From assembly GCA_947459205.1 (NCBI GenBank), contig CANHCR010000006.1, positions 1-64,000 on the forward strand: a DNA stretch of 64,000 nt, read 5' to 3'. Both the position numbers and the translations under genes were made by a program. This stretch comes from Caryophanales bacterium. GTDB taxonomy: Bacteria > Bacillota > Bacilli > Paenibacillales > CANHCR01. The notes under the pieces were generated by a model, which searched no databases, was not told the DNA's origin, and saw nothing but the letters and a program-made list of their open reading frames with translations. Below are positions 8,914-38,488 of the stretch, one piece after another (positions within the stretch are counted from its first letter, which is position 1; each line of letters starts with the position of its first letter).

Positions 8914-10098
8914 ATGATCATTAAACCGAAAGTTCGCGGTTTTATTTGTACGACAGCGCATCCTGCGGGCTGTGAGCGACATGTGTTGGAGCAGATTGAA
9001 TATGTCAAAAGCCAAGGCAAGGTGGCAGGCGGACAGAACGTATTGGTTATCGGCGCTTCGACGGGCTACGGCTTGGCATCGCGGATTGTGTCAGCGTTCG
9101 GCAGTGGCGCGAAAACGATTGGCGTATTTTTTGAGCGTCCATCCGCGGATGAGCGTACGGCATCGGCTGGGTGGTACAATACGGTTGCATTTCATAAAGC
9201 GGCACAGGCAGAAGGGTTGCTGAGCATCAATATTAACGGGGATGCGTTCTCGAATGAGATTAAGCAGCAGACGTTGGCAGCCATTCGTGAGCATCTCGGC
9301 ACAGTGGATCTCGTCGTGTACAGTTTGGCATCACCGCGCCGCACGCATCCAGATAATGGTGAGACGTATAGTTCGGTGCTGAAACCGATTGGCGCTAAGT
9401 ATACGAATAAGACGATCAACTTTGCCAACGGAGTCGTTAGCGATATCTCGATTGAGCCTGCTAATGTGACGGAGATTGCGCATACGGTGGAAGTGATGGG
9501 TGGCGATGACTGGCAACGCTGGATTCAATTGCTCGATGAGGCCGGCGTGCTGGCGAACGGCGTGAAGACGGTGGCTTATTCGTACATCGGACCTCAAATC
9601 ACGCACGCGATTTATCGTGAGGGGACGATTGGCCGTGCGAAGGATCATTTGGAGGCGACTGCGCAGGCTTTGAATGGCTTGTTGCAAAAATATGAAGGTG
9701 AGGCGGTCGTTTCCGTCAATAAGGCGCTCGTGACGCAGGCAAGTTCGGCGATTCCGATTGTGCCGTTGTATATCTCCATTTTGTATAAAGTGATGAAAGA
9801 AAAGGGCTTGCACGAAGGGTGTATCGAGCAAATGTATCGTCTGTATCAAGATTGTTTGTTCGGCGCAGGGGATCGTCAGTTTGATGAAAAAGGGCGGATT
9901 CGTATCGATGATTGGGAGATGCAGGCAGATGTGCAGGCAGAAGTGACTGCCTTGTGGCAACAAATTGCGAGTGAGAACGTGGAGCAAATTAGCGACTTGG
10001 CTGGTTATCGTCGCGATTTCATGAAACTGTTCGGCTTTGATCTCGAGGGTGTCGACTACGAGGCGGACATTACGCTGAACGAGTGGGATGCAATATAA
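8914..10098 (+). CDS. fabV: Trans-2-enoyl-CoA/ACP reductase FabV
   Basis: 394 residues, the usual length for FabV, an NADH-dependent enoyl reductase of the SDR superfamily that completes the fatty acid elongation cycle and resists triclosan. Visible are the N-terminal KPKVRGFICTTAHP signature, the nucleotide-binding loop VIGASTGYGLASRI, the long active-site spacing Y-X8-K (around YIGPQITHAIYREGTIGRAK), and the C-terminal Phe/Asp-rich segment. The start ATG has GGAGG with good spacing. It is monocistronic, with a hairpin terminator just after the stop. FabV is more usual in Proteobacteria; whether FabI is also present cannot be seen here. Confidence 0.93.
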   Translation: MIIKPKVRGFICTTAHPAGCERHVLEQIEYVKSQGKVAGGQNVLVIGASTGYGLASRIVSAFGSGAKTIGVFFERPSADERTASAGWYNTVAFHKAAQAEGLLSININGDAFSNEIKQQTLAAIREHLGTVDLVVYSLASPRRTHPDNGETYSSVLKPIGAKYTNKTINFANGVVSDISIEPANVTEIAHTVEVMGGDDWQRWIQLLDEAGVLANGVKTVAYSYIGPQITHAIYREGTIGRAKDHLEATAQALNGLLQKYEGEAVVSVNKALVTQASSAIPIVPLYISILYKVMKEKGLHEGCIEQMYRLYQDCLFGAGDRQFDEKGRIRIDDWEMQADVQAEVTALWQQIASENVEQISDLAGYRRDFMKLFGFDLEGVDYEADITLNEWDAI

Positions 10099-10220: not shown

Positions 10221-10274
10221 TAAAAACCGGCTAGGTAACCGTCGTCAAAAAATGACAACGGCTACCGGCCGGTT
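10221..10274 (-). terminator. Terminator of the clpX-like operon
   Basis: Read on the minus strand, a long stem (AACCGGC, GGTA, CCGT, GTCA and their partners) closes on a T6 loop and is followed by TTTTTA. It lies just after the stop of the ClpX-like gene. Confidence 0.8.
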
Positions 10275-10285
10275 ATTTGTATTGG

Positions 10286-11596
10286 TTATGATACCGTTTT
10301 TCGTTTTGTGGCTCTTTTTTTGACCACAAGCAAATCAGCCTCTTCCATTGAGTTGATGTAAGATTCGGTCACTGTCACCGACTGTATCTTTTTGCCGGTG
10401 AAATTAAACACAATTGGTAACATCAACTGCTCAAAAATCGTGCTCAGACCGCGCGCCCCAGTACCAAACAAAATGGTTTGTCGCGCAATCGCGCTGATGG
10501 CCGCTGGTTCGAACTGCAATTCGATGCCGGAGATGGCGAGTGAGTGTTGGTGCTGCTTGACCAACGCATTTTTCGGTTTCGTCATGATGTATTCAAAATC
10601 TTGTTGTGTCAGGTCATCCAATTGGACAATGATTGGCACGCGTCCCATAAACTCGGGGATCATCCCGTACAAGATGAAATCTTCAACGGTCAGATTGCTG
10701 AAAAGCGCATGTTTTTTGATGACCGGTTCGACTTCCACACTGTCCTGCACTTCCTCGGTTGGAGTCAAGCCGAAGCCGATTGCTGGTTTACTCTCAATTT
10801 GTTTGACACGGTCCGGCTTGAGTTTTTCCATGTCGGAGAAGGCGCCTGCACAGATAAACAAAATGTTGCGCGTGTCTATTTTTGGCAGACCAGCACTGCG
10901 TGACGAGCTCGTCGTACGCCCCATATCAATGACGTCACCTTCTATCATTTTCAGAAGAGAGTGCTGCACCCCTTCGCCACCAACGTCGCGACCGCCGTAC
11001 ATACTTGATTTCTTCGCAATCTTATCAATCTCGTCAATGAACACAATGCCACGTTGAGCGCGCTCAATATCTTTGCCAGCCGCATGGTACAAATTCTTGA
11101 GAATCGATTCGACGTCATCACCGACGTAGCCTGCCTGCGTCAGCGAACTAGCGTCGACGGCCACGAACGGCACATCAAGCAATTTGGCTACCGTTTGCGC
11201 GAGCAACGTTTTACCGCTACCGGACGGACCGCAAATCATCACATTCGCCTTCTTCATCACCGTACCGTCTTTCATCTCACCAGAGTAAACGCGTTTGTAA
11301 TGTTGATATACGGCAACGGCGATCAACTTTTTCGCACGTTCTTGTCCGATGATGTACTCGTCAAGAAACGCTACGATTTGTTCCGGTAGCGGAACTTTGT
11401 CGAACAACTCTTGCAAATTCTTTTGTGTGCTTGGTTTCTTCTTGTTTCGACCGACTTTTTTCTGATAACTTTCAAACATTTGATTGCCTAACTGAATACA
11501 ATCAAAACAGATGTGAATGTTATCGGGTCCGCTGATTGCACTTTCCGTCACACTCGATTTACAAAAAGAACATTCCAATTGTTTAGCGTTTTTCAT
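10286..11596 (-). CDS. ClpX-like AAA+ unfoldase (paralogue)
   Basis: 436 residues, the length of ClpX. An N-terminal Cys4 zinc-binding domain (CSFC...CFDC) is followed by a full AAA+ module: Walker A GPSGSGKT, pore loop GYVGDD, Walker B IVFIDEID, RDVGGEGVQHSLLK, and sensor-2 GARGL. The IGF loop that docks ClpX on ClpP is intact (AIGFG). The RKH loop, which in ClpX helps recognise substrates, is replaced by a Ser-rich stretch (TSSSRSAG). So a ClpP partnership is likely but substrate choice is probably different. ATG 11596 is chosen because GGAGG (11605-11609) is 8 nt upstream; ATG 11602 is only 2 nt away. It is the last gene of a four-gene operon and overlaps the preceding gene. It is probably not the housekeeping clpX, which normally sits near tig, clpP and lon. 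Confidence 0.88.
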   Translation of the reverse strand: MKNAKQLECSFCKSSVTESAISGPDNIHICFDCIQLGNQMFESYQKKVGRNKKKPSTQKNLQELFDKVPLPEQIVAFLDEYIIGQERAKKLIAVAVYQHYKRVYSGEMKDGTVMKKANVMICGPSGSGKTLLAQTVAKLLDVPFVAVDASSLTQAGYVGDDVESILKNLYHAAGKDIERAQRGIVFIDEIDKIAKKSSMYGGRDVGGEGVQHSLLKMIEGDVIDMGRTTSSSRSAGLPKIDTRNILFICAGAFSDMEKLKPDRVKQIESKPAIGFGLTPTEEVQDSVEVEPVIKKHALFSNLTVEDFILYGMIPEFMGRVPIIVQLDDLTQQDFEYIMTKPKNALVKQHQHSLAISGIELQFEPAAISAIARQTILFGTGARGLSTIFEQLMLPIVFNFTGKKIQSVTVTESYINSMEEADLLVVKKRATKRKTVS

Positions 11597-12320
11597 TCGC
11601 ATAACCTCCAGATTTGATAGGTGTGTTCTCGTACAGCCATTTCCAATATTTGAGCCTAATTGTTTCGGCTAGCATCGCCGCAGCTGGCAACTTCCCTTTG
11701 TAATGCTTGTCCTCTCGTAAAAAGGTGACAATGTCTTTGTCAGCCAATTGGACGTTGTGTGCCAACTGCTCGATCAACTCTTTGAAAATGTCCGCCTCAA
11801 AACCAGGTGATGCTTGCCAAAACGAAGTATCGCCACTACTAATGTTTTTGGTACGATTTTTTTGTTCACCGTCCAAACGAATGCATTCATCTAAGGCGTC
11901 GCGAATTTCTTTGGCAATCCACGGTTTGAGTGCTTGCATCATTTTTTTTCTGGAATCAGAGAATCCGTAGCGATACTGCTCGATGTACAATTTCAATAGC
12001 GAACTATCAAAAAAACAGGCCAACGTCTTGCGTGATTGTACGACCGTCGCTTTCTCGGCAGGTGAGCATCGTGCAAACCCGTCTGGTGCAACCTTGTCGG
12101 CTTTCATTTTCTCCAATAAACAATCGATGCATATGTTCACTTTTGCCACCTTTAAGCGATTGATCGCGTGGTACAATGCAACTCGCTCCACTAGCCATTC
12201 ATTTTTAGCCTCATAGCCAATAAGCAAAGAGCGTGCATCGCAAACATCGCAACGCAACAACTCTTGGCTTGTTCGTTCAATCTCCGTCACGCGCGCACTC
12301 TTCTCGATTTGACTTGGCAA
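11583..12320 (-). CDS. Zinc-motif protein of the clpX-like operon (third gene)
   Basis: 245 residues, not recognised as any named family. An N-terminal Cys4 motif (Cys24-x2-Cys27 and Cys64-x2-Cys67, ICIDC) resembles the zinc domain of the ClpX-like protein encoded next. The C-terminal third (FWQASPGFEADIFKELIEQL, then a PAAAMLAETIR segment) is shared with the other two upstream proteins, so the three are paralogues. The start is TTG 12320, with GGAGGAG inside the end of the preceding gene and a 4-nt gap between stop and start. It overlaps the ClpX-like gene. The inferred role is an adaptor, partner or substrate-delivery factor for that unfoldase; no catalytic motif is visible. Confidence 0.75.
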   Translation of the reverse strand: MPSQIEKSARVTEIERTSQELLRCDVCDARSLLIGYEAKNEWLVERVALYHAINRLKVAKVNICIDCLLEKMKADKVAPDGFARCSPAEKATVVQSRKTLACFFDSSLLKLYIEQYRYGFSDSRKKMMQALKPWIAKEIRDALDECIRLDGEQKNRTKNISSGDTSFWQASPGFEADIFKELIEQLAHNVQLADKDIVTFLREDKHYKGKLPAAAMLAETIRLKYWKWLYENTPIKSGGYANEKR

Positions 12321-12324
12321 ATGA

Positions 12325-13056
12325 TTACTCTCCTCCTCGTTGTTGAGATAATTCTTGGAAATCGGCCAATTGTTTCATATATAAACTGCGGAACACTTCT
12401 GCTGTATGAATAGCGGGTGAAAGTTTGCCAACTTTTATGTCAGCTGTTCGCAACTGTTGCTCATATTCGGCAGAAATCTCGTGTTGTAAGAAGTAGCTTG
12501 GATCGTCCCACAGCCGTCGCAATGCTCGGATGAATATGTGCGCTTCAGCACCTGTGTAGCCTTGCCAAAATTTTTCGTGGCGGCTCAAATCCGCTCCGAG
12601 AACGGCCAGTTCACGATCGGATTTTTCGAATTGAACGAGCGCCTCGTACAATTCGACAGGCATGAATGTTTGTGCCGTCTCCAACAGGCGCGACGTTTCT
12701 TTTGTTGCACCAGACTGTTTGCGCGTCAATAAGCGCAAGGTGTACGGCATCAACTCAGGTATTTTGAACACGGTCTGCCATTTTTCAAGAAACAGTTGCT
12801 CATTCTCGTCTTGCCATTGCTCAAACAGTTTATCAACGCTAATGTACACCTTGGATTTTCCTTTGTGCATGTTGCTGCACGAAAAGGATTTCCAACGGTC
12901 ATGATGCAAGTCGTTGATTAACTGTACGCATATTGTGCGTTGTCCGGTCACCATGCACGTGTCAGTTGATACAAAATCAATGTTTTCACGATAGTAGTAA
13001 GGAATTTGTTGAATAAGCCATCCGCTCCTTTTACAATGAATAAAAATTCTCGGCAA
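12325..13056 (-). CDS. Paralogue in the clpX-like operon with a lost zinc motif (second gene)
   Basis: 243 residues, unknown family. The C-terminal part (FWQGYTGAEAHIFIRALRRL, then LSPAIHTAEVFRSLYMKQL) matches the proteins encoded on both sides. The N-terminal part lines up with their zinc domains, but the CxxC pairs are gone: CMVTG replaces the first and VYISVDKL the second, so it probably does not bind zinc there. The start is unclear. The TTG at 13056 has no ribosome site and overlaps the upstream gene by 26 nt, while a good AAGGAG follows the upstream stop (13031-13033) with no in-frame ATG, GTG or TTG at the right distance. An ATT start or a sequence error are possible. Confidence 0.65.
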   Translation of the reverse strand: MPRIFIHCKRSGWLIQQIPYYYRENIDFVSTDTCMVTGQRTICVQLINDLHHDRWKSFSCSNMHKGKSKVYISVDKLFEQWQDENEQLFLEKWQTVFKIPELMPYTLRLLTRKQSGATKETSRLLETAQTFMPVELYEALVQFEKSDRELAVLGADLSRHEKFWQGYTGAEAHIFIRALRRLWDDPSYFLQHEISAEYEQQLRTADIKVGKLSPAIHTAEVFRSLYMKQLADFQELSQQRGGE

Positions 13057-13678
13057 CTTGCAAAAAGTTGCATTTGTCGCGCTGTGCCATCATCGCTTTC
13101 AGATGACGTTGGCGATACCGTTCGGCCGCATGTACGGCTGGCGATAGCACAACATGGTCTGCGAGGTCACATTTCATTTTGACGAAAGACATCACATCGG
13201 TTTCGAGAAATGATTCTGGCGATTTGTACATGGCTTCAATCAATTTATAGTACAGATTGACATCATCACCAGTGGCGCCTTGCCACCATGCGGTCGTTGT
13301 TTCACATTCCAACCCGACCGATTTCAACTCGTTGTCTAGACGTTGCAAGACTTTTATTTCTTTGATTACATCTTGGGCGACATAAGCAACACTTTCTTTG
13401 TTGTCGTTGCACACACTTTCGATCAGTGACGGGAACAAGTACATTAGGTTCGTCTGGTTTTTTAATTTGCCGCCTTCCTCGTTAATAAAGGCTTCGATAC
13501 AGTCAAAACAAACGTGTAATTTGCTGGTATAATCTCGTAGCACCTTGTAGGCTTTCAATAGTTGAAGTTGTTCGTTCCAAATCACCGCTACACCCAAGTC
13601 GTCAAAAGAGCACACGCAGCACTCTTCGATGCTAATTCTACCTTGGATGAAAATTGTATCGCGGGTTAGATTTTGCAT
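13031..13678 (-). CDS. Zinc-motif protein of the clpX-like operon (first gene)
   Basis: 215 residues, unrecognised. Cys20/Cys21-Cys23 and Cys57-x2-Cys60 (HVCFDC) form a Cys4 motif whose second half is the same CFDC as in the ClpX-like protein. The C-terminal part WWQGATGDDVNLYYKLIEAM, then LSPAVHAAERYRQRHLKAM, defines the domain shared by the three upstream proteins. The ATG has GGAGGTG about 8 nt upstream. It is the first gene of the minus-strand operon, following the terminator of the alcohol dehydrogenase gene; a weak TATATT -10 box lies at 13701-13706. It is predicted cytoplasmic. A partner of the ClpX-like unfoldase is the simplest guess from context and the shared zinc motif. Confidence 0.75.
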   Translation of the reverse strand: MQNLTRDTIFIQGRISIEECCVCSFDDLGVAVIWNEQLQLLKAYKVLRDYTSKLHVCFDCIEAFINEEGGKLKNQTNLMYLFPSLIESVCNDNKESVAYVAQDVIKEIKVLQRLDNELKSVGLECETTTAWWQGATGDDVNLYYKLIEAMYKSPESFLETDVMSFVKMKCDLADHVVLSPAVHAAERYRQRHLKAMMAQRDKCNFLQVAENFYSL

Positions 13679-13750
13679 GAGTCACCACCTCCGACAATCC
13701 AATATACCGTGAGAATTGAAAATTGGAATGGTAGTTTGAAAGATTTTCAA

Positions 13751-13788
13751 AAAAAAAAAACGAGCATGGCTGCCCGTTTCGCTCGTTT
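13751..13788 (-). terminator. Terminator after the alcohol dehydrogenase gene
   Basis: On the minus strand AACGAGC pairs with GCTCGTT and is followed by about 12 T. It separates the dehydrogenase gene from the clpX-like operon downstream. Confidence 0.85.
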
Positions 13789-13800: not shown

Positions 13801-14979
13801 TTATGATCGTTTGAAAATTTCAATGGCATCTGTTCGGTCGAGTGCAATGAAACGCCCGAACGGTCCGCGGCGCATCGTTCGTTCGGCAAGTTCTTCTAAG
13901 CGGTCGTGTGCGATGCCGTAATCGGCTAGCCGAGTCGGTGCACCGAGCGTTTGCCAAAACTGTTGTAAACGGTCGACTGCAGCATGTGCGCAGGCGAGCA
14001 GTTCCGTAGGTGTATCGGCGATAGGTTTGGGCAATCCAAACACATGGGTGCCTAGTTGAGCCAGTTTTTTGCTACCGATTCCCTGGTCGAGCGCATAGCG
14101 CATCCACTGAGGGAATAAAATCGCTAATCCGCCACCGTGCGGAATATCGTAGATTGCACTGACGGCATGTTCAAGGTTGTGTGTCGCCCAATCGCCGCGT
14201 ACGCCCATGCTGAGCAGGCCGTTTAACGCCATCGTGCCGCAATACATGATTTGCGCCCGTGCATCTACGTTGGTGGGGTTTTGAAGAGCAATCGGCGCTT
14301 GGTCGATGACTGTGCGCAGGAGCGTTTCGGCAAAACCGTCTTGTACTGGTGTTTGTTCCTGATGGTGCATGTACTGTTCCAAGATGTGCGACATGATATC
14401 GACGATTCCGTAAACCGTATGTTCCGCCGGTACTGAGCAAGTCGTTTGCGGATCTAGTATGGAGAAGCGTGGGTAGGTGAACGGCGAACTCCAACCGATT
14501 TTTTCATTTGTCTGCCAGTTGGTGATGACCGAGTTGCTGTTCATTTCTGAGCCAGTTGCGGCCAAGGTAAGTACGGTTCCGAGCGGCAAGGCTCCACTGA
14601 CTTTCACGTTGCCGACGACGATCTCCCAGACGTCCGCATGCATGGCTGCGGCTGCGCAAATGGCCTTGGCGCCATCAAGCACACTTCCGCCACCGACTGC
14701 AAGCACGCCATCTAGTTGTTGCTCATGACAGATTGTGACTGCTTTTTGCAAAGTGGTGTGGCGTGGATTCGGCTCGACTCCGCCAAACTCGACATAAGCG
14801 ACGCCAGCTTGTTTCAGTGCTGCAGTCACTTGCGCGTGCACACCATTTTTCAAAATACTTCCGCCACCATAAACCAATAAGAGACGGCGCCCTAATTGCG
14901 GTGCAAAATGTTGCAGTTCAGCAATCGCGCCGACACCGAATACGAGACGTGTTGGGTTGTGATATTGAAATGGTATCAT
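13801..14979 (-). CDS. Iron-containing alcohol dehydrogenase (YugJ/BdhA type)
   Basis: 392 residues from ATG 14979, which has AGGAGG at the right distance; the longer frame upstream lacks a ribosome site. It is a group III metal-dependent dehydrogenase reducing aldehydes such as butyraldehyde with NAD(P)H. It shows GGGSVLDGAK (nucleotide binding), ATGSEMN, and metal ligands in IVDIMSH, HNLEHAVSA and IPHG. This pattern is that of YugJ/YugK and clostridial butanol dehydrogenases. It is divergent from the ADP-ribosylglycohydrolase gene with a 63-bp gap. Its natural substrate cannot be told from sequence. Confidence 0.9.
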   Translation of the reverse strand: MIPFQYHNPTRLVFGVGAIAELQHFAPQLGRRLLLVYGGGSILKNGVHAQVTAALKQAGVAYVEFGGVEPNPRHTTLQKAVTICHEQQLDGVLAVGGGSVLDGAKAICAAAAMHADVWEIVVGNVKVSGALPLGTVLTLAATGSEMNSNSVITNWQTNEKIGWSSPFTYPRFSILDPQTTCSVPAEHTVYGIVDIMSHILEQYMHHQEQTPVQDGFAETLLRTVIDQAPIALQNPTNVDARAQIMYCGTMALNGLLSMGVRGDWATHNLEHAVSAIYDIPHGGGLAILFPQWMRYALDQGIGSKKLAQLGTHVFGLPKPIADTPTELLACAHAAVDRLQQFWQTLGAPTRLADYGIAHDRLEELAERTMRRGPFGRFIALDRTDAIEIFKRS

Positions 14980-15042
14980 CGGTATTCCTCCTAAATTCAA
15001 GGTATAATATATGAGAATGAAGAGGGGGTGCATGTTAGTATC

Positions 15043-15969
15043 ATGAATATCATACCACATTTGAAAGCTGCAATATTAGGGTTGGTAACGGCGGACGCAT
15101 TGGGCGTACCGGTCGAGTTTACGAATCGAGAAGCGCGGCTGCAAGACCCAGTTAACGAAATGCGTGGTTTCGGTACCTTTCATCAACCAGCGGGAACTTG
15201 GTCCGATGACAGTTCGCTGACATTGTGCTTATTAGACAGTTTCGTCGACGGCTACAATATCGATAACCTCGCCACCAAATTTGTACAGTGGCTCGATCAT
15301 GGATTGTGGACTGCGCATGGTGATGTGTTTGATGTCGGCGGAACAACACGCGCATCGATACGCCGATTTGCGAAAGGTACAGCGGCCGCCGAATGTGGTG
15401 GAGCGACAGAGTGGGACAATGGCAACGGTGCGTTGATGCGCATTTTGCCGCTGTTGTTTTATACGAGGCATTACTCAGATTCGGAGCGTATAAGGATTAT
15501 CAACGAGGTCGCTGCAATCACGCACCGCCACGCTAGGTCGAATATGGCGTGTCACATCTATATTGATTTCGCACGCCATATTTTAGCCGGGCATTCGCCG
15601 CAGGACAGTTATCGACTGCTCGTGCAAGACGCCGATCGCTACCGTCAAGCGAATGCGGAAGCGACTCATTTCGAGCGGATATTGAGGGGTCAATTGCTTC
15701 GTTTAGATGTCTCAACCATTCGTTCCAGCGTATATGTGGTGGATACACTGGAAGCGGCGCTCTGGTGCATCCTGCATACAAACACGTATCGTGAAGCGGT
15801 GTTACGCGCTGTCAACCTAGGGGGCGACACAGATACGATTGCCGCCATTGCTGGTGGCGTGGCGGGATTATGCTACGGTCTCGAGCAAATACCTGAAGAG
15901 TGGTTGCAAACGATTGCGCGCCGTTCTGACATTGAGTCGCTTTGTGAACGGGCAGCCGCAAATATTTAA
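15043..15969 (+). CDS. ADP-ribosylglycohydrolase family protein (DraG type)
   Basis: 308 residues. Family enzymes use two Mg ions to remove ADP-ribose from proteins or small molecules. The metal-binding motifs are present: WSDDSSLT near the N-terminus and LGGDTDTIAAIAGG near the C-terminus, plus GNGALMRILPL. ATG 15043 is preferred although its spacing from AGAGGGGG (15021-15028) is long, about 14 nt; a GTG at 15028 overlaps that site. TATAAT at 15003-15008 may be the -10 box. The stop codon shares bases with the stop of the convergent GH31 gene. No ADP-ribosyltransferase or toxin gene is adjacent, so the target is unknown. Confidence 0.85.
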   Translation: MNIIPHLKAAILGLVTADALGVPVEFTNREARLQDPVNEMRGFGTFHQPAGTWSDDSSLTLCLLDSFVDGYNIDNLATKFVQWLDHGLWTAHGDVFDVGGTTRASIRRFAKGTAAAECGGATEWDNGNGALMRILPLLFYTRHYSDSERIRIINEVAAITHRHARSNMACHIYIDFARHILAGHSPQDSYRLLVQDADRYRQANAEATHFERILRGQLLRLDVSTIRSSVYVVDTLEAALWCILHTNTYREAVLRAVNLGGDTDTIAAIAGGVAGLCYGLEQIPEEWLQTIARRSDIESLCERAAANI

Positions 15970-26485: not shown

Positions 26486-26551
26486 GTATCGTAGACTGCT
26501 ATATGTATCTACATATGAGGCTTTCACTTTATCGAAGGAGTGGTTTTTAGA

Positions 26552-29500
26552 ATGGCAAAATGGAAAGCGCACTGCGCTAGATGGCTCGCAGTACTTATGG
26601 TACTGAACCTTTTGCTTGTACCGGGCGTGTCAGCGAATACTGGAAGTTTTTCGCACACGATCGACATGACAAAGAACGACAATGATTTTAATGCTGAAAA
26701 GACGGCGGGTAACACTGCGAACGAAACGTTCAGCACATCGACTGCCAATAACTTCGCCTATGTGACATGGGATGCGACTAATATCTATTTGGGGTATGCC
26801 TCTCCTGATATCTCACATGTGAATAACAGCAATGCATCAGATAAGTGGGTCATTGCTTATTTTGGTGTGCCTGGTGCAACCGGCACAACGACTACGGGTA
26901 TTAACTATAAAGGTCAGCAACCTGGTTTGCCTTTTGAAGCGAAATATCATCTTCGTTTTAAAACTGGAAACAACAATTACACTTCTTTAGAGATCTATAA
27001 CGGCACTACTTGGACATTTTCAAAAGAGTATAAGTGGACGACCGACATGCAACGTAACACTACGTCTAGTCCAACTTTTTGGAAAATCAAAATTCCGCGT
27101 GCTGATTTGGGCTTAACTTCTGCAAAATCGTTTCAATTCGCAATGAGCATGTTGTTCGAGGTTAACAATGGTGGCTCGATGTGGGGCGCTTTGCCAAGTG
27201 ATAGTTTTGCGAATGCCGATAGTACAAAAAACGGTGATGGATTCGATCGCGACTTCGCTTCATTCTATGAATTCGATTTGCAGTCAGTGAATACAGCAGC
27301 TGCAGGACAAGTCTATGCTTATAATTTCAAGGCTACCAGTGCTACGTTCGAGACGGCTTCCTTCTCGTTTGCAGAACAGACAGGTGCTACTTCAGTTGCC
27401 ATTCAACAGTCTATCGATAACGGTGTGACATGGACACCTTCTACTACATCAAGCGCTCTCGATGCAACTTCCAAGACAGCGACAGTCACTGGTTTGAACG
27501 AATCGACGAAATATAAATTTCGTCTTGTTGTGACTGGCGGGTCGACAGCGGGTTCATCGACGATTGCAAATGTGACGACAGTTGCTGCGCCGCCGGATAC
27601 GGTTGCTCCATCGGTACCAGCCGGTGTTACTGCTAATTCGGTAACGGCAACAAGTGCGGTCATTACATGGACGCCGTCGACAGATAATCGGGCAGTTAAG
27701 GAATATGAAGTATATAACGGGAATACGTTGCTTGGCACGGTGTCTAGCGCAAGCTATACGATGTCAGGCTTAACTGAGTTCAGTTCTTATAGCGTGACCG
27801 TAAAAGCGAAGGATGCGGCTGGTAACACTTCGGCTGCTAGCACTGCGCTTAGTTTCAAAACGAAAGATGTGACTGCACCTTCGGTTCCATCGAATGTGAC
27901 GAGTGCAGATTTGACAGCAACCGGGTTTGAAATTGCATGGACCGCATCTACGGATAATGATGCTGTGGCAGGTTACGAAGTGTCGCTCAACGATACGGTC
28001 GTTGCAACAGTGACGAATACATCCTATGTATTCACAGGTCTAACACCTGCAACTTCTTATTCTGTGAGTGTGAAAGCAAAGGATGCAGCAGGCAATATAT
28101 CAGCGGCGACTTCTGCATTGACAGTATCGACACCGGCGCAAGAAGAAACGGAAGCGCCGACAGCACCGACGAATCTAGGATCTTCTGATAAGACAACAAC
28201 TGGATTCAAAGTAACGTGGACATCGTCGACTGATAATGTTGGAGTTACTGCTTACGAAGTTTATAATGATGGAGTGCTTGTCACAAAAACGCCTGAAACG
28301 TCATACGTTTTCTCGGGGTTAAAAGACAGCACAGCATACAAAATTACGGTGAAAGCAAGAGATGCAGCAGGTAATGTGTCTGTTGCAAGTTCAGAATTAA
28401 GTGTATCCACAAACGATGGTACGGTGCCAACAGTGCCAGTTGGTGTGGCGTCTTCCGCTGTGACAGCGACTGGATTTGGCATCTCATGGACCGCTTCGAC
28501 AGACAACGTCGGCGTGACTGGTTACGAAATTTACAAAAATGGGACGCTCGTAGATACTGTTTTTGCTACAACGTACTCTTTCACGGGTCTAACCGATGCA
28601 ACGAAATATACAATTACGATCAAGGCTAAAGATGCTGACGGCAACGTGTCTGGCGCAAGTACTGCACTTGATGTGACGACACTCGATGCTACACCTCCTG
28701 CATCACCAACTCAATTGGTATCATCAGATATCAGTTCGAATGGCTTTAAAGTAAGTTGGAAAGCAGCAACTGATAATGTAGCTGTTAGCGGATATGAAAT
28801 TTTGCAAAACGGCACGAAAGTAGCAGAGAGCAAATCGCTTGCTTACACATTTAGTGGATTGGCTAAAGGCACCGCATACGATGTGACAGTCGTCGCGGTG
28901 GATGCGGCTGGTAACAAGTCTGCACCAAGCACAGCTTTGTCCGTTGCGACAGAAAACAAAAACGAAGTCATTATTTTCTATAAAAAAGGTTTGGAAAATC
29001 CTTATATCCACTATCAACCAGAAGGTGGAAGTTGGACAACGGCTCCGGGGATTAAAATTCCGCACAGCGGGGTCGCTGGCTACCACAAAATTAAGATTGA
29101 TTTAGGTGCTGCTAGTAAAATGACAGCAGTGTTCAATAACAACGGGGCTGATTGGGATAATAATGCAGGGAAGAACTACTCGTTCAATACGGGCACGTAC
29201 ACGTTTGTTCCTGCTGTTGGTGGTGGCACGATTACTGCCGGAGAACCTGATCTGAGTGCGTTTAACTGGGTCACGATTTACTACAAGAAAGGATTCAGCA
29301 CACCATTTATTCACTTCCAACCTGAGAAAGGTACTTGGACTACATCGCCAGGAGAACAGTTGGTTGAGAGTGAATTCAAAAATCATAACAAGATTGTCAT
29401 TCCAGTTAGTAAAGAAGCGACGAAGTTAACTGCTGCATTTAATAATGGTGGCACGACATGGGATAGCAATAGCGAGAAAAATTACTCGTTTGATTGGGGC

Positions 29501-32500
29501 ACAAAAACAAATCCAGTATTCACCTACGTAGCAGGTCAAAATAATCAAGCCGGTACGATGACTGCAGAAGCGCCGGACAGTGTTCCGCCATCTGTTCCGT
29601 CAGGATTTGTTTCCTCGGCTGTACAAAAAAATGCATTCACTGTGACTTGGACAGCTGCAACGGACAACTCAGGCAAAATAGCTGGTTATGATGTATATCT
29701 TGATGGTGCAAAAGTTGCCACATCAACGATACCAACTTATTCGTTTACAGGACTATCGGATAGCACTGCATATAACGTTCAAGTTGCTGCTGTAGATGAG
29801 AACGGCAATACTTCAGCGCTTAGCGCACCGTTCGAAACGGTAACAGCGGACATTAAAGCGCCGACTACACCGACTGCATTGAAAGCATCAGATATTAAAG
29901 TGGATGGATTTACAGTAACTTGGACAGCGTCTACGGATAATATCAAAGTAGCCGAGTACGAAGTGTATCGTGATAGCACACTTGTCGATAAAACAGCGAC
30001 TGCTAGTTACACTTTAACTTCACTTGCTCAAAATATAACGTACCAAATTACGGTTGTGGCTGTAGACTTGGCCGGCAACAAATCTCCTGCGAGTGTGGCT
30101 CTTTCGGTCAAGACATCGGAAACGACACCTCCGACTGTTCCTAGCGAATTATCATCAAGTCAGATCAAAACGACCTCTTTCGTACTAAGTTGGACGAAGT
30201 CGACCGATAACGCTGCTGTGAAAGAATACGAACTATATTTGAATGACGTAAAGGTAGCGACTGTAGTAGCAGAATCTTATGCATATATTGGTTTAAATCC
30301 GGATACAACGTACTCAGTTGCGGTAAAAGCAATCGACGTGAACGGTAATGTCTCAGCGCTCAGCGATGCGCTTAATGTGAAGACAATCGCTTCCGTTGAA
30401 ACAATTCCTCCTAGTGTGCCAACAGCGGTTCAAGCGAGCAATGTTACCACAACATCGTTAAACGTAACGTGGACTGCCTCGACCGACAATGTAGGCGTAA
30501 CGGGCTATGAAGTTTATGTAGATGGCAAATTGGTCGGTAGCAGTGCAACGACTGTATTCAATGTGACTGGATTGAAACAAAATACGGTATATGCGATAAC
30601 AGTCATCGCGATTGATGACGCTGGCAATCGCTCAGTGGCTAGCACACCTATCAACGTGACAACGGCTGACGGTGAAGCGCCGACGGCACCAACCGGCATG
30701 AAATCATCAGCGATTACGAACAATAGTTTCAAAGTAGAGTGGACAGCTGCAACGGATAATGTTGCTGTAAAAGAATATGAAGTTTATCGTAGCGGTCAAT
30801 TGCTGACGAAAACAACAGCGACAGAATATGAATTCGTGGGCTTGGTAAGTAATGTCACCTTCGCGATTACTGTGATTGCAGTTGATGCAGCAGGTAATAA
30901 GTCTGTGGCTAGTGAACCGTTAGCTGTGAAAACATTAGGCAACAAAACGTATGCCAATACCATCTCGTTTGCCGATAATAAGAATACATTCTTCTTAGAC
31001 GATCATCCGGATAAATCGAAAAATGAAACGTTCCGTCACCCGGGCGATAAAACAGTCGGTCATATTACATGGGACGACAATTTCATCTATCTCGGTTATC
31101 AATCCGATGATCTGGCTCATGTTAGTAGTGCGACAGAGAGTAAGTGGCTAATCGCTTACTTTGGTGTTCCAGGTGTCAAAGGTACATTTAACGGTGTTGA
31201 ATATACTGGTCAACAACCGAAACTTCCGTTCGAAGCCAAATATCATTTCCGTTTCCAAGCAGGCAATCAAAATTACTCCTCGCTTGAAGTGTATGATGGC
31301 TCCGAGTGGAAACGTTCAAAAGTTCTGAACTGGAATACCAACATCATTCGCGATGCGTTGGCGAAACCGGTATTTGTAAAAGTGAGAATTGCGCGTGCGG
31401 ATTTGGGCTTGACGGAAGGCACTACGTTGCAAGCAGTCATGGGTATGGTGTATGAGGCGCCGACCAATGGTTCCATGTGGGGTTCTGTACCGTCCGATGC
31501 GATTCCAACTGCTGGATTTGATAAAGATTTTGAAACGTTCTACGAGTTCGATTTGACATCGGAAAAATCGGCACCAGCAGCACAGGTGTTCAACTATGGT
31601 TTGAAAGTAACGAATGCAGCAGCTACGACAGCAACGTTTGCATTCAACGCTTCGACCGGAGCGACTTCGATTCAGTTGCATTACTCATCTGATTTGGGCA
31701 AAACTTGGATTATTGGTACCTTGAGTCAGCCGTTAAATGCTAATTCGACGGTTGCAACGGTAACTGGTTTGACACCAGAAACGAACTATCGCTTCAGAAT
31801 GGTCGTAGTTGGCGGTGTCAATGAAGGTTCTTCCGCCGTAGTAGCGCTCAAAACAAACGTGGCGCCAGATGAGCAACCGCCGTCAGCACCATCAGAGTTG
31901 GCAGCTAATGAGATCACACAAACTTCGATTAAACTAAGTTGGACCGAGCCATCCGATAACGTTGGCGTTGCAAAATATGAAATTTTCAATGGGGGCGTAA
32001 AAGTCGGCGAGAGCACGACAAATTCGTTCGCAGTTTCTGGTTTGACGGAAAATACGGAGTATAGTTTCACGATTGTCGCATTTGATGCAGCGGGCAACAA
32101 ATCGGCAAACAGTGAAATTTTAAAAGTGAAGACGCTCGCAGCTCCTGCAACCGTCCTTATTTTCTACAAAAAAGGATTCAGTTCGCCGTATATCTCTTAT
32201 AAAATTGGCGATGCTCCACGCATTGAATCTCCAGGTCTTGCATTAACAACGAGCGATCTATACAACGGCTATTCGACGATTACGGTTCTCCTAGGTGAAT
32301 CGGTCTCGCTGAATGCAATGTTCAATAACGGCACTGGTGATGTAACGAAGTGGGACAGCAATAGTAACAACGGCTACACGTTCACAAAAGGAACGTACAC
32401 CTTTGTACCAAACGAGAATGGTGGCGCTGGAACAATCATAACGGGCATACCAGACATCGAAGCCCCTATTTCACCGGTTGATTTGGAAGTTGAAACTCGC

Positions 32501-33976
32501 ACAGAAAATTCGCTGAAGTTAAAATGGAAAGCAGCTACCGACAATGTGGCAGTTACCTCTTACGTCGTATACCGAGACAATGTGAAAATTGCTACGGTCA
32601 ACGAACCATCATTTACAGACACTAGTTTGGTGAAAGATACGTATTACTCCTATAAGATTATTGCGCGTGACGCGATGTACAATGCTTCGCCACCGAGCAA
32701 GGAGCTGCGCGTGTCGATGAACGATTCGTTGTTCGAAAAAATCGATCGGACTACGCAACTTACTTCGACGACAGCGATCTTCGATAGTGCGAAATTGATT
32801 GAAAAAATGGACAAAGAATCAATCACGGTTGCTTTGACTGAAGAAAAACCGGTCGTTCGTCAAATCCGTTTTGAAATTCCGGCGCTAGCGCTACAAACAA
32901 TCGCTGCAAAAAATCCAGACCGTGTGCTTACTTTGCAAACTAGTTTTGGAACGATGCAGTTGCCAGTAAGTGCGTTGCAATTGTCATCAATCGCTGGTCG
33001 TGTCGGTACGTTGGTGAAAAATCTTAAAATTGTGGTCATCATCAAGCGCACAGATCTCACGGTGAACAATGAATTGAAATCAATGTTGGCTACGCAAGGT
33101 TCGACGATGGTTATCGATTCTGTAGAGTACAGATTATTCGGTGAATCGACAGACATCAATAAAAAACCGTTCGAAATTATGGACTTCCCAATGGTTAAAA
33201 AGTTGTCCACTGATCCGCAACAATACCATTACTTGACGCGTGAGATTGAGTTGCCGCGTGATGTTGTATTATCGAGAGCAACAGTACTTGCATACAATCC
33301 ATTGAGCAAGAAGACCCAGTTCGTACCAGCTGTGTTCGAAAAACGTGCAGATTTGCAAGTAGTTGTAATCAAAGCGCCAATCAACATGGTATTCGCCGTC
33401 GTGGAGACGAGAAGAACATTTAGAGACGTCATTCGTGATAAAGCGGATATCGAAATGCTTGCTAACAAAGGCATTGTTCGCGGTACGACAGATACGACAT
33501 TCAGCCCTACTGTAACGGTAAAACGCGGACAGTTTGCAGCACTCCTTGTACGCGCGCTTGGTTTGGAAGAAGATGCGAAAGCGGCAAACTTCAAAGATGT
33601 TGCAGTGAATCATCCGTTCGCAGGTGTGATCGGAACGGCATCGAAGACAGGACTTGTAAAAGGCTCGACAGACGGAAGATTCAATCCGAATGCAGAAATT
33701 ACAAACTCAGAGATGGCAATCATGCTTGAGCGTGCTGCAACGTATGCAGGTAAACCGATTTCTGTAACACCTGTTCGAATCAGTCAATTGTTGGCAGGCT
33801 TCGCTGATCGCAATTTGATTCAGTCGTGGGCGACTACATCCGTGGCGAAAGCGATGGAAGCAGGCATCGTCAAACCTGCAGTACGTTTCAATCCGACTGC
33901 GAAAGTAACGCGCGCTGAGGCAACAATTATGCTCAAACGTATGCTGGAGTACATTGACTTTATTAATAAGCCTTAA
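26552..33976 (+). CDS. Giant S-layer-anchored protein with FN3 repeats and starch-binding-like modules
   Basis: 2474 residues from ATG 26552 (GAAGGAG upstream). A signal peptide ends near GVSA. Order: a CBM9/DOMON-like beta domain (about 30-247), a divergent FN3, five FN3 domains, two CBM25/26-like starch-binding modules (about 805-1008; IYYKKG, PGEQL, FNNGG, WDSNS), five FN3, a second CBM9/DOMON-like domain (1467-1670), a divergent FN3, one FN3, a third starch-binding-like module, one FN3, a linker, and three SLH domains (2287-2473). SLH domains hold proteins on pyruvylated cell-wall polymers. No catalytic domain is visible, so it may catch starch or glucan at the surface for enzymes such as the pullulanase. 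The whole module set looks duplicated inside the gene. Confidence 0.88.
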   Translation: MAKWKAHCARWLAVLMVLNLLLVPGVSANTGSFSHTIDMTKNDNDFNAEKTAGNTANETFSTSTANNFAYVTWDATNIYLGYASPDISHVNNSNASDKWVIAYFGVPGATGTTTTGINYKGQQPGLPFEAKYHLRFKTGNNNYTSLEIYNGTTWTFSKEYKWTTDMQRNTTSSPTFWKIKIPRADLGLTSAKSFQFAMSMLFEVNNGGSMWGALPSDSFANADSTKNGDGFDRDFASFYEFDLQSVNTAAAGQVYAYNFKATSATFETASFSFAEQTGATSVAIQQSIDNGVTWTPSTTSSALDATSKTATVTGLNESTKYKFRLVVTGGSTAGSSTIANVTTVAAPPDTVAPSVPAGVTANSVTATSAVITWTPSTDNRAVKEYEVYNGNTLLGTVSSASYTMSGLTEFSSYSVTVKAKDAAGNTSAASTALSFKTKDVTAPSVPSNVTSADLTATGFEIAWTASTDNDAVAGYEVSLNDTVVATVTNTSYVFTGLTPATSYSVSVKAKDAAGNISAATSALTVSTPAQEETEAPTAPTNLGSSDKTTTGFKVTWTSSTDNVGVTAYEVYNDGVLVTKTPETSYVFSGLKDSTAYKITVKARDAAGNVSVASSELSVSTNDGTVPTVPVGVASSAVTATGFGISWTASTDNVGVTGYEIYKNGTLVDTVFATTYSFTGLTDATKYTITIKAKDADGNVSGASTALDVTTLDATPPASPTQLVSSDISSNGFKVSWKAATDNVAVSGYEILQNGTKVAESKSLAYTFSGLAKGTAYDVTVVAVDAAGNKSAPSTALSVATENKNEVIIFYKKGLENPYIHYQPEGGSWTTAPGIKIPHSGVAGYHKIKIDLGAASKMTAVFNNNGADWDNNAGKNYSFNTGTYTFVPAVGGGTITAGEPDLSAFNWVTIYYKKGFSTPFIHFQPEKGTWTTSPGEQLVESEFKNHNKIVIPVSKEATKLTAAFNNGGTTWDSNSEKNYSFDWGTKTNPVFTYVAGQNNQAGTMTAEAPDSVPPSVPSGFVSSAVQKNAFTVTWTAATDNSGKIAGYDVYLDGAKVATSTIPTYSFTGLSDSTAYNVQVAAVDENGNTSALSAPFETVTADIKAPTTPTALKASDIKVDGFTVTWTASTDNIKVAEYEVYRDSTLVDKTATASYTLTSLAQNITYQITVVAVDLAGNKSPASVALSVKTSETTPPTVPSELSSSQIKTTSFVLSWTKSTDNAAVKEYELYLNDVKVATVVAESYAYIGLNPDTTYSVAVKAIDVNGNVSALSDALNVKTIASVETIPPSVPTAVQASNVTTTSLNVTWTASTDNVGVTGYEVYVDGKLVGSSATTVFNVTGLKQNTVYAITVIAIDDAGNRSVASTPINVTTADGEAPTAPTGMKSSAITNNSFKVEWTAATDNVAVKEYEVYRSGQLLTKTTATEYEFVGLVSNVTFAITVIAVDAAGNKSVASEPLAVKTLGNKTYANTISFADNKNTFFLDDHPDKSKNETFRHPGDKTVGHITWDDNFIYLGYQSDDLAHVSSATESKWLIAYFGVPGVKGTFNGVEYTGQQPKLPFEAKYHFRFQAGNQNYSSLEVYDGSEWKRSKVLNWNTNIIRDALAKPVFVKVRIARADLGLTEGTTLQAVMGMVYEAPTNGSMWGSVPSDAIPTAGFDKDFETFYEFDLTSEKSAPAAQVFNYGLKVTNAAATTATFAFNASTGATSIQLHYSSDLGKTWIIGTLSQPLNANSTVATVTGLTPETNYRFRMVVVGGVNEGSSAVVALKTNVAPDEQPPSAPSELAANEITQTSIKLSWTEPSDNVGVAKYEIFNGGVKVGESTTNSFAVSGLTENTEYSFTIVAFDAAGNKSANSEILKVKTLAAPATVLIFYKKGFSSPYISYKIGDAPRIESPGLALTTSDLYNGYSTITVLLGESVSLNAMFNNGTGDVTKWDSNSNNGYTFTKGTYTFVPNENGGAGTIITGIPDIEAPISPVDLEVETRTENSLKLKWKAATDNVAVTSYVVYRDNVKIATVNEPSFTDTSLVKDTYYSYKIIARDAMYNASPPSKELRVSMNDSLFEKIDRTTQLTSTTAIFDSAKLIEKMDKESITVALTEEKPVVRQIRFEIPALALQTIAAKNPDRVLTLQTSFGTMQLPVSALQLSSIAGRVGTLVKNLKIVVIIKRTDLTVNNELKSMLATQGSTMVIDSVEYRLFGESTDINKKPFEIMDFPMVKKLSTDPQQYHYLTREIELPRDVVLSRATVLAYNPLSKKTQFVPAVFEKRADLQVVVIKAPINMVFAVVETRRTFRDVIRDKADIEMLANKGIVRGTTDTTFSPTVTVKRGQFAALLVRALGLEEDAKAANFKDVAVNHPFAGVIGTASKTGLVKGSTDGRFNPNAEITNSEMAIMLERAATYAGKPISVTPVRISQLLAGFADRNLIQSWATTSVAKAMEAGIVKPAVRFNPTAKVTRAEATIMLKRMLEYIDFINKP
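28966..29575 (+). other. Tandem CBM25/26-like starch-binding modules 1 and 2
   Basis: Two adjacent repeats inside the S-layer-type gene, each with YKKG, a P(Y/F)IH(Y/F)QP strand, WTT(A/S)PG, FNN(N/G)G, a WD-Asn pair, and a KNYSF strand. These are the marks of CBM25/26-type starch-binding modules. Confidence 0.65.
32150..32450 (+). other. CBM25/26-like starch-binding module 3
   Basis: A third copy in the same gene (FYKKGFSSPYISY, SPGLALT, FNNGTGD, WDSNSNNGYTF). It lacks the Trp-Thr-Thr of the first two copies. Confidence 0.6.
33410..33970 (+). other. Three SLH domains
   Basis: Three S-layer homology repeats at the C-terminus: FRDVIRDKADIEMLANKGIVRGTTD, FKDVAVNHPFAGVIGTASKTGLVKGSTD and a third, more divergent one (FADRNLIQSWATTSVAKAMEAG), with the typical Phe-x-Pro and RAE/RGQ elements. 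Confidence 0.88.
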
Positions 33977-34423: not shown

Positions 34424-35923
34424 TTATGCGTTTTTAATGGACTGATTTTTCAAATCATTTTTGATCAAGTCAGCGGTCAATTGGCCCGATAATGTGACCA
34501 TCGGTACGCCGCCGCCAGGATGCGTCGATCCGCCGACAAAGTATAAATTGCTTAGCAGCGCGCTGCGACTCGGGATTTTGAAACCGCCATTCCGTTTTTT
34601 ATCGGCCGCTACACCATATATCGAGCCACCATTGGAACCGTATAAACTTTGCAAATCGTCTGGGATGAACTGATATTCAAAGACGATATGTTTACGTAAT
34701 TCGGAAGCGCCCATCCGCTCCAATTTGTCGAGCACCAATTCGCGATAACGAGTTCGGTGTTGCTCCCAACTCTCGCCACTCTTCAGCGGAGGTACGTGCG
34801 TCAAGATAAACCAATTCTCACAACCTTCAGGCGCTTGGCTCGGATCAGATTTAGAGGAAATGCCTACATACACGGTCGGATCATCGGCAGGCACTTCTTC
34901 GTCATAAATTTGGCTGAACTCGAGTTGTGGATTTCGTGAGAAAAAGAAATTGTGATGCGTGAACTGCGAATACTCACGATCGACGCCAAGCAGCATTACC
35001 AATCCCGAAACAGTCGGGTTAAACTTCTCTAACTTCTTCGTTTCTTGTTTGGCTTGTGGAACATCGGCAAGCACACTCTGATAGGCCGGTATCGCTTCAA
35101 GATTGCTCACAATAAGGTCGGCGTATACCGTTTCACCAGATTCTAGCGTTAAGCCAGTCGCTTTGCCATTCGTATGCTCGATTTTCGCGACTTTGGCATT
35201 CGTCTGCACCGGCACCTCAAGTTCTTCGAGCAAACGCAACATACCGCGCGCAATGTTGTACATGCCGCCTTTCACGTAGTAGATGCCTAGACCCATTTGC
35301 ACATGTGCAAGTTGCGACAAAATAGCAGGTGAATGGTACGGCGAAGAACCGACATACATGACAAGAAAATCGAACATTTGCTGGATTCGTGCGTCATCAA
35401 AAAAACTTTTCGTGGCCTGATTCACCGTCTTCAGCGGATCCATCGCCAACAACTCGCGTAGTGAATGATGACTGCGCAATTCAGACAGACCAGATATACT
35501 TTTTGCATAGAAACTCTTCATACATAGTTCGTATTGCTTATAGGAGTAACTTAAGTAGTCGAACAATGCAGCACTGTCATTGTGTGATATTTTCTCTAAC
35601 TCGGCAACCATCGTTGGCAAATCACCGCTCATATCAATCGTTGTGCCGTCTTCAAAAATCGAGCGCCACTGTGGCTCGACGCGCATAATTTCAACATAAT
35701 CCGACAACTTTCTGCCAGCCGAGGCAAATAATTTTTCCAGCACCCACGGCATCGTTAAGATGGACGGCCCCGTATCGAACGAATACCCGTTGCCTTCACG
35801 GATGTTCAACTTTCCACCAGCTCGTTCGTTTTTTTCATACACCGTCACATTGTGTCCGTCTGCACGCAAACGAATGGCCGCCGATAAACCTGCCAGTCCA
35901 CCGCCAACTACTGCAACTTTCAT
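34424..35923 (-). CDS. CrtP/CrtNb-type carotenoid oxidase (CrtI family), paralogue 1
   Basis: 499 residues. An FAD-dependent enzyme of the CrtI/CrtN family: N-terminal VVGGGLAGLSAAIRL dinucleotide fold with YEKNERAGGKL, and C-terminal FVGGSTHPGGGVPMV. YVGSSPYHSPA in the middle is shared with the fourth paralogue (45187-46686) and recalls CrtP/CrtNb, which oxidise the end methyl group of diaponeurosporene to an aldehyde. ATG 35923 has AAGGAGG 8 nt upstream. It is the second gene of a minus-strand operon with the methyltransferase. Whether it is an oxygenase or a desaturase needs assay. Confidence 0.85.
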   Translation of the reverse strand: MKVAVVGGGLAGLSAAIRLRADGHNVTVYEKNERAGGKLNIREGNGYSFDTGPSILTMPWVLEKLFASAGRKLSDYVEIMRVEPQWRSIFEDGTTIDMSGDLPTMVAELEKISHNDSAALFDYLSYSYKQYELCMKSFYAKSISGLSELRSHHSLRELLAMDPLKTVNQATKSFFDDARIQQMFDFLVMYVGSSPYHSPAILSQLAHVQMGLGIYYVKGGMYNIARGMLRLLEELEVPVQTNAKVAKIEHTNGKATGLTLESGETVYADLIVSNLEAIPAYQSVLADVPQAKQETKKLEKFNPTVSGLVMLLGVDREYSQFTHHNFFFSRNPQLEFSQIYDEEVPADDPTVYVGISSKSDPSQAPEGCENWFILTHVPPLKSGESWEQHRTRYRELVLDKLERMGASELRKHIVFEYQFIPDDLQSLYGSNGGSIYGVAADKKRNGGFKIPSRSALLSNLYFVGGSTHPGGGVPMVTLSGQLTADLIKNDLKNQSIKNA

Positions 35924-35947
35924 GTGCTCAACCTCCTTAAATTTGCA

Positions 35948-36502
35948 TTAATATAAAAACGGAATGAGGCGTCGGCGTTTTTTTAGCCATAGTGCATACG
36001 AATCACCGAATTGTGCCAACATTGCGCGTTCTTCCAAACGAATTCGCACCATCAAAACAGGGAGCATGAGTAACCAGACAGAGACCAGCCCTAGCCATGT
36101 GTTTAGGCAAAGGGCGATGCCGGATAAACTAAGTAAAATGCCGAAGTAGAGCGGATGCGCTAATAAACGATACGGACCACTGGATACAAGCTGCGTATGA
36201 TCGCTGACTTTAATGTGGCGGGAGAAGTTGTTGCCTAGTTCATGGATGCCCCACCAACGCAGCATAACACCGCTGGCATAAATGATAAGTCCGAGGAATG
36301 GCAACCAAGTACTTTTGTGTTGAATAGAGGTAAGTTGGTAATGAGATGAGATTGCCGAAATGGTGATGCTTACTATGAGTGAACACCAAATGAGCAGGAG
36401 ACTTCGACGTTCGACGACGCCTTCTTTGCTGCGATCGGGACGATGAATGATTAACTCGAGCAACCAAAAGAAAGTGATGAGAGAGAATATTAGGGTGAAC
36501 AT
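35948..36502 (-). CDS. Isoprenylcysteine carboxyl methyltransferase (ICMT)-like membrane protein
   Basis: 184 residues with four or five hydrophobic segments. The C-terminal signature of the ICMT/PEMT membrane methyltransferases is clear: LVSSGPYRLLAHPLYFG, then RIRLEERAML and FGDSYALWLKKRRRLIPFL, which bind S-adenosylmethionine. ATG 36502 is chosen because GGAAGGTG lies just upstream; the GTG at 36511 overlaps that site. It precedes a carotenoid oxidase gene and starts beside the 11-bp repeat array. In this place it might methylate a carotenoid carboxylate, a methyl ester found in some bacillus apocarotenoids. That is an inference. Confidence 0.8.
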   Translation of the reverse strand: MFTLIFSLITFFWLLELIIHRPDRSKEGVVERRSLLLIWCSLIVSITISAISSHYQLTSIQHKSTWLPFLGLIIYASGVMLRWWGIHELGNNFSRHIKVSDHTQLVSSGPYRLLAHPLYFGILLSLSGIALCLNTWLGLVSVWLLMLPVLMVRIRLEERAMLAQFGDSYALWLKKRRRLIPFLY

Positions 36503-36523
36503 GAGGAACACCTTCCCACGATT

Positions 36524-36562
36524 TATATAAGTATTGTATAATAGTTATATCAGTTTTGTATA
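36524..36562. promoter_or_regulatory. 11-bp repeat array, probable CarH/LitR-type operator (array 1)
   Basis: TATATA, TGTATA, TATATC and TGTATA begin at 36524, 36535, 36546 and 36557, exactly 11 bp apart. The array lies between the divergent methyltransferase and aldehyde dehydrogenase genes. CarH-type MerR regulators bind tandem 11-bp repeats with a TGTA-like core over the -35 box of carotenoid genes. No such regulator is in the window. Confidence 0.65.
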
Positions 36563-36586
36563 GATTTATTTTGGAGATGAGCGTCA

Positions 36587-38005: not shown

Positions 38006-38011
38006 ACCGCC

Positions 38012-38488
38012 CTACAACAACTTTTGCAGTTCTTCGCTGATTTTTTCTGGCGTGTCCGTAGGTGCGAAACGTTTGATGACGTTTCCCTCGCGGTTGACAA
38101 GGAACTTCGTAAAATTCCACTTGATTGCTTCCGTTCCGAACAAGCCTGGCGCCTCTTTTTTTAAGAATTTGAACAGTGGGTCGGCATGCTCACCGTTCAC
38201 ATCAATCTTGGCAAACATCGGGAACGACACATCATATTTTAACGAACAAAAGTTGCGAATCTCCTCCTCGGAACCCGGTTCCTGTGCGCCGAACTGGTTG
38301 CATGGAAATCCCAAAACTTCTACGCCTTGCGTTTGTAAGTTGCTGTACAGTTTTTGCAAACCTGCATACTGCGGCGTGAATCCACACTTGCTCGCTGTAT
38401 TCACAATCAGGAGCACCTTGTTTTTGTAGGCGTCGAGCTTAATTGCTTGGCCATCGATGGTCTCGACAGAGAAATCGTAGATTGACAT
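38012..38488 (-). CDS. Glutathione peroxidase family protein (BsaA type)
   Basis: 158 residues. Thiol peroxidase of the GPx family with Cys in place of selenocysteine: [15 protein letters not shown], then [14 protein letters not shown] and IKWNFTKFL. Bacillary members use thioredoxin rather than glutathione and remove peroxides including lipid hydroperoxides. ATG 38488 has GAGGTG upstream; the longer frame has no ribosome site. It is transcribed divergently from the crtN operon through repeat array 2, which suggests co-regulation with carotenoid synthesis as a response to light-generated oxidants. Confidence 0.92.

Follow-up and report, generated by a model that had tools for sequence, protein, structure and literature searches.

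A minus-strand operon of four genes was found to encode a divergent paralogue of the unfoldase ClpX (P0004, here ClpX2) together with three proteins (P0001, P0002 and P0003; proteins 1–3) that are related to one another through a common C-terminal domain and have no significant match in the libraries searched. It lies in the window, the whole stretch of 64,000 nt that was analysed, which corresponds to contig C6 of a genome of 2.52 Mb (73 contigs, estimated to be ~99.5% complete). By sequence, ClpX2 retains the motor motifs and the ClpP-docking loop of ClpX and has lost its substrate recognition loop. We tentatively favour, at less than even confidence, a reading in which ClpX2 is a specialised unfoldase, working with or without the resident ClpP proteins, and the three proteins are its cognate adaptors or regulators.

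Organisation of the operon

The operon is situated between fabV (8914–10098, plus strand) and a gene for an iron-type alcohol dehydrogenase (13801–15060, minus strand) (Table 1). A four-gene minus-strand operon had been placed here in the first-pass annotation, and its ORFs were confirmed as listed, with an overlap of 26 nt between genes 1 and 2, a gap of 4 nt between genes 2 and 3 and an overlap of 20 nt between gene 3 and clpX2. Good to strong SD sequences were identified for genes 1, 3 and 4 (clpX2). The start of gene 2 is uncertain (TTG 13056, which has no SD sequence, or ATT 13014) and that of clpX2 is likely ATG 11596, with an SD sequence (GGAGG) 8 nt upstream; the overlaps would therefore be smaller than listed. 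The four packed genes and the terminator that follows them constitute a real operon.

Table 1 Features of the clpX2 operon and of its upstream border
Feature	Position	Strand	Description
Gene 1 (P0001)	13031..13678	-	215 aa; SD GGAGG ahead of ATG 13678
Gene 2 (P0002)	12325..13056	-	up to 243 aa; FWQ-x3-G C-terminal domain
Gene 3 (P0003)	11583..12320	-	245 aa; SD GGAGGAG ahead of TTG 12320
clpX2 (P0004)	10286..11602	-	436-438 aa; divergent ClpX unfoldase (predicted)
Zinc-binding domain of ClpX2 (Cys4, C11/C14/C32/C35)	11471..11575	-	PF06689 matches
Altered loop of ClpX2 at the RKH-loop site, MGRTTSSSRSAGLPKIDT	10871..10924	-	residues 227-244; canonical sequence VPPQGGRKHPHQEFIQVDT
IGF (ClpP-docking) loop of ClpX2, KQIESKPAIGFGLT	10763..10804	-	residues 267-280; AIGFGL
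Intrinsic terminator at operon end	10225..10274	-	strong; dG -35.9 kcal/mol, z -8.4
Terminator-like hairpin of the upstream alcohol dehydrogenase gene	13757..13780	-	parts that gene from the operon

ClpX2, a divergent ClpX

P0004 scores above the cut-offs of the NCBIfam ClpX equivalog models NF003745 (438 bits, cut-off 359) and TIGR00382 (399.4 bits, cut-off 370.75). Its zinc-binding domain is a normal Cys4 domain with cysteine pairs 17 residues apart, matching PF06689 at 28.7 bits (cut-off 27) and at 31.5 bits in a search of its own genome. The motif table shows that Walker A (GPSGSGKT), Walker B (FIDEIDK), the pore loops (pore-1, GYVG; pore-2 region, RDV-GEG), the arginine finger (EFMGRVP) and sensor 2 (TGAR) have all been kept. 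By these curated models and motifs, P0004 is a true member of the ClpX unfoldase family. Its first-pass description as a ClpX paralogue is borne out by the resident clpX of the same genome, which is located elsewhere in a complete, standard tig-clpP-clpX cluster, separate from clpX2. A second, ordinary clpP adjoins rapZ-yvcK-whiA. A housekeeping machine as well as free ClpP would thus be supplied by this genome.

The RKH substrate loop (GGRKH) is gone from ClpX2, with GRTTSSSRSAG occurring instead; the segment reads VPPQGGRKHPHQEF in the resident ClpX and MGRTTSSSRSAGLPK in ClpX2. It has been described for E. coli ClpX that changes to RKH impair substrate recognition and the degradation of ssrA-tagged proteins, while ATP hydrolysis becomes faster (PMC7112951). 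ClpX2 is nevertheless read here as a variant of ClpX, since RKH-less paralogues are counted as ClpX (PMC11423568). The segment ahead of the IGF loop is longer than in canonical ClpX, with the loop itself present. To our knowledge, nearly all ClpX proteins have the IGF loop, and finding it in ClpX2 therefore indicates no more than that docking has not been given up. No single observation says more about function than this retention of motor and docking loop alongside loss of the recognition loop, and a docking loop kept while RKH is lost agrees with a specialised machine.

ClpX2 is ~45% identical to the resident ClpX and 43–47% identical to ClpX of the other searched genomes of the order, and no genome among 150 others of the order matched P0004 a second time at E ≤ 1e-60. 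Among 399 Bacillota genomes, its best non-self matches had 47–48% identity, the range of canonical ClpX. In a tree of 48 ClpX proteins, P0004 formed the longest end branch (1.74) and took no supported position; it fell weakly beside phage sequences (47/65), and a phage origin was rejected as a conclusion from this tree, the position being unsupported and flagged as a long-branch join. AU tests rejected the grouping of ClpX2 with its own ClpX (p 0.0004) and with ClpX of the order (p 0.003), while rejection of a position inside the Bacillota set was only marginal (p 0.03). The former two values reject an origin of ClpX2 by recent duplication of the resident ClpX, barring evolution fast enough to defeat the model.

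Comparison with canonical ClpX (TIGR00382/NF003745) shows that ClpX2 is likewise full-length, with zinc domain, AAA+ module, catalytic motifs and IGF loop, but differs in its sequence (~45% identity), in its replaced RKH loop and in being encoded with three orphan proteins rather than with clpP. ClpX3 of Myxococcus xanthus (43.5% identity to E. coli ClpX) is, like ClpX2, an extra divergent ClpX without the RKH motif alongside a resident tig-clpP-clpX; however, it is devoid of the N-terminal zinc domain and is encoded by an isolated gene, whereas ClpX2 possesses the zinc domain and three co-encoded partners (PMC11423568). Another RKH-less ClpX, which has a zinc domain and is without partners, is encoded at a Myxococcota locus (L117). 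The ClpX-like proteins of large phages (e.g. gp258 of Bacillus phage G; IMG/VR loci L027–L106) are similarly divergent, with a zinc domain and an often altered RKH loop, but they are ~38–44% identical to ClpX2, show no specific kinship with it and have no partner homologues alongside. The libraries and literature searched yielded no other ClpX paralogue encoded together with three paralogous unplaced proteins. What is new therefore appears to be the three-partner operon, divergent RKH-less ClpX paralogues being already known.

The three partner proteins

The C-terminal domain common to proteins 1–3 is ~110 residues long. P0001 and P0002, the closest pair, gave a local score of 122 (1000 shuffles, 31.5 ± 4.9), and the more distant P0003 scored 64 with P0001 and 62 with P0002 (shuffle means ~32.5, maxima 58 and 59). 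As none of the 1000 shuffles reached any of these pair scores, the domain reported in the first-pass annotation is upheld: the likeness is beyond chance, and the three proteins are paralogous through this domain. Invariant residues include W-Q-x3-G and A-x3-AE-x2-R; the core is WWQ-x3-G in P0001 (followed by PA-x3-AE-x-YR) and FWQ-x3-G in P0002 and P0003. The N-terminal regions have no clear mutual similarity over their whole length.

Searches of P0001–P0003 against Pfam, NCBIfam, PHROGs, PADLOC and PDB sequences returned sub-threshold chance matches only, in keeping with the earlier statement that the motif of their C-terminal domain could not be placed in any known family. With the PADLOC anti-phage defence models, the three proteins had no match and P0004 had generic AAA matches only. 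The pLDDT of the full-length model was 43.7, and the fold search was therefore performed on the model of the C-terminal domain only. This model, made from the three sequences, is all-helical and of modest to low confidence (mean pLDDT 65), and its fold search gave no significant match (best E 0.59, viral; 2.4, PDB). A match to RcdA (E 4.7), a ClpXP adaptor of Caulobacter, was not counted as evidence. A likeness of the WQG region to WXG100, seen by eye, was dropped, as the spacing differs and no Pfam match occurred at E 10.

P0001 possesses a Cys4 motif (C20-x2-C23-x33-C57-x2-C60, with HVCFDCIE), as does P0003 (C24-x2-C27-x36-C64-x2-C67), the distance of 33 and 36 residues between their CxxC pairs being about twice the 17 of ClpX2. 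P0002 retains one of the four cysteines, with a degenerate ISVDKLFE against VCFDCIEA and ICIDCLLE in the others. Neither P0001 nor P0003 matched PF06689 (zf-C4_ClpX), be it in the search of their own genome or by hmmscan to E 10, and the second knuckle alone aligned with the ClpX zinc-domain profile (hhalign probability 60%, 17 columns). The proposal that two partners carry a ClpX-like zinc motif can thus be kept for the presence of the Cys4 motifs and of the CFDC string common to P0001 and ClpX2, but the resemblance to ClpX is confined to one knuckle. The best match of the gene 1 knuckle among 149 ClpX zinc domains was that of ClpX2 (score 49, median 29), and CFDC occurs in two of the 149. 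This likeness is suggestive of common origin or coevolution, yet it is short enough for convergence, and short Cys4 motifs arise often.

Distribution of the partner family

The host, a bacterium of a spore-former lineage, was placed in the Bacillota on the basis of its gene content and of a homologue of Spo0A in its genome. The relatives drawn for comparison belong without exception to families of the order other than its own. In overlapping draws from the order (399 genomes), the class (400) and the phylum (399), a profile built from proteins 1–3 gave a clear match in the home genome alone, and it had no match in 37 further genomes or virus records (a scan without a positive control). Weak matches of the profile in Bacillota loci L005–L009 (17–19 bits) were discarded as not significant over 399 genomes. 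No relatives of protein 3 were found in plasmids, phages, IMG/VR or 84,980 GTDB species, and none of proteins 1 and 2 in IMG/VR; the IMG/VR and GTDB scans require exact eight-residue matches, by which close relatives only are detectable. Partner-like small Cys4 proteins were absent from the other ClpX loci, bar one low-complexity artefact. As far as searched, the partner family is lineage-restricted. The first-pass view of the operon as a dedicated system is supported in part: a true ClpX paralogue, unplaced related partners and an RKH loop lost with IGF kept agree with it, but it rests on one locus because partner homologues were found in the home genome only.

Possible function of the operon

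We infer an adaptor function for the three proteins. ClpX2 would assemble into a hexamer, powered by ATP, that could dock on either or both of the resident ClpPs; lacking RKH, it would recognise ssrA-type tags poorly and would receive its clients from the three partners. Their N-terminal regions, two of which are zinc-knuckle-like, may contact the zinc domain of ClpX2, while the shared helical C-terminal domain may bind clients or fellow partners. The three paralogues could provide three specificities or form a hetero-oligomeric gate. SspB and RssB are known adaptors of ClpX, and the proposed mode is similar in that a separate protein brings clients via the zinc domain of ClpX, but for proteins 1–3 no homology was detected, either to curated families or to solved structures. 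The zinc domains of ClpX form dimers and are required for its interactions with adaptors (PMC9035409). We favour the adaptor function, which explains at once the operon arrangement, the loss of RKH from a ClpX that keeps its zinc domain, and the likeness between the knuckles. Our confidence in it stays short of even in view of the single genome, the short and statistically weak zinc link, a protein 2 without the cysteines and the low-confidence C-terminal model. A further-reaching version, which we regard as rather unlikely, is that ClpX2 has no general tag recognition and works only via a hetero-oligomer of three zinc-knuckle adaptors, which would have arisen by duplication within the operon, their N-terminal part perhaps copied from the zinc domain of ClpX2.

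The main rival reading, itself somewhat doubtful, is that the three proteins are clients, forming a hetero-oligomer via the C-terminal domain that is disassembled or remodelled by a dedicated ClpX2, with or without ClpP. ClpX acts in this way on MuA. Three paralogues that have a domain in common and are encoded with one unfoldase resemble the subunits of a complex as much as adaptors. The lost RKH loop would suit a single fixed client as well as a dependence on adaptors; the operon and the loss of this loop are explained equally well by both readings. However, no such complex is known, and the likeness of the knuckles of two partners to the ClpX zinc domain would be left unexplained. Unlikely, in our estimation, is a loose association of a general-stress ClpX paralogue, such as ClpX3 of Myxococcus, with three orphan proteins, acting in regulation or binding, that make no contact with it. 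Partnerless RKH-less ClpX paralogues do exist (M. xanthus ClpX3 and that of Myxococcota locus L117) and short Cys4 motifs are frequent, but the near-zero spacing of all four genes, their single terminator and the CFDC common to gene 1 and ClpX2 argue otherwise. Descent from a phage or mobile element, with the operon as its domesticated remnant and the orphan genes as fast-evolving phage genes, is improbable: many large phages encode a divergent ClpX, commonly with an altered RKH loop, P0004 lies weakly beside phage sequences and the GC content of the operon genes is slightly lower than that of adjoining genes (0.43–0.47 versus ~0.48–0.52), but that tree position was flagged as long-branch attraction, neither an integrase nor a structural or other phage gene was recognised near the operon, whose flanking genes are metabolic, and partner homologues were absent in the phage and plasmid scan (protein 3) and the IMG/VR scan (proteins 1–3).

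The specificity of ClpX has usually been studied as that of one ClpX serving many adaptors. If the three proteins are indeed cognate adaptors of ClpX2, the operon would be a self-contained and testable example of a machine that has lost its own tag-recognition loop and is served by recognition subunits dedicated to it. It would bear on the source of ClpX specificity and on the joint evolution of adaptors and unfoldases, and may offer a tool for orthogonal protein degradation.

Translation start of gene 2

The start region of gene 2, the second gene of the clpX2 operon, has an unusual layout. The ATG that follows its Shine-Dalgarno sequence (AGGAG) is out of frame and reaches a stop after 11 codons, and the only in-frame options are an ATT, 10 nt from the Shine-Dalgarno sequence, and a TTG without one. 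Starting at the ATT gives the same distance to the first cysteine as in gene 1, the upstream neighbour. A rare start codon, a frameshift or a sequencing error are possible explanations.

Coordinates of the features described
Feature	Position	Strand
Gene 2 start region	12986-13056	minus
Gene 2 ribosome-binding site, AGGAG	13029-13025	minus
Gene 2 ATT	13014	minus
Gene 2 TTG	13056	minus
Secreted repeat protein	26540-33976	
Carotenoid-type gene cluster	34424-46686	
L117 ClpX paralogue	L117:5983-7203	
L117 upstream gene	L117:2678-3934	

Other genes of the window

Inspection by eye points to a secreted protein of 2,478 residues with numerous repeats resembling fibronectin type III and, at its C-terminal end, what look like S-layer homology repeats, as well as a long carotenoid-type cluster comprising several phytoene-desaturase-like genes, one phytoene-synthase-like gene, a glycosyltransferase, an acyltransferase and an aldehyde dehydrogenase.

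ClpX proteins of other loci

A Myxococcota MAG (locus L117) encodes a divergent ClpX paralogue in which the RKH (substrate-recognition) motif is absent and the zinc domain and an MGF docking loop are present; a gene upstream of it encodes an unusual repeat protein with numerous CxxC zinc-like repeats. RKH loops are strongly changed (for example, ASKKMVVSD) in large-phage ClpX proteins from the viral_contigs loci L032, L034, L036, L039, L066, L092 and L094. Two of these (L066 and L094) also lack the ClpP-docking IGF motif and may be ClpP-independent.
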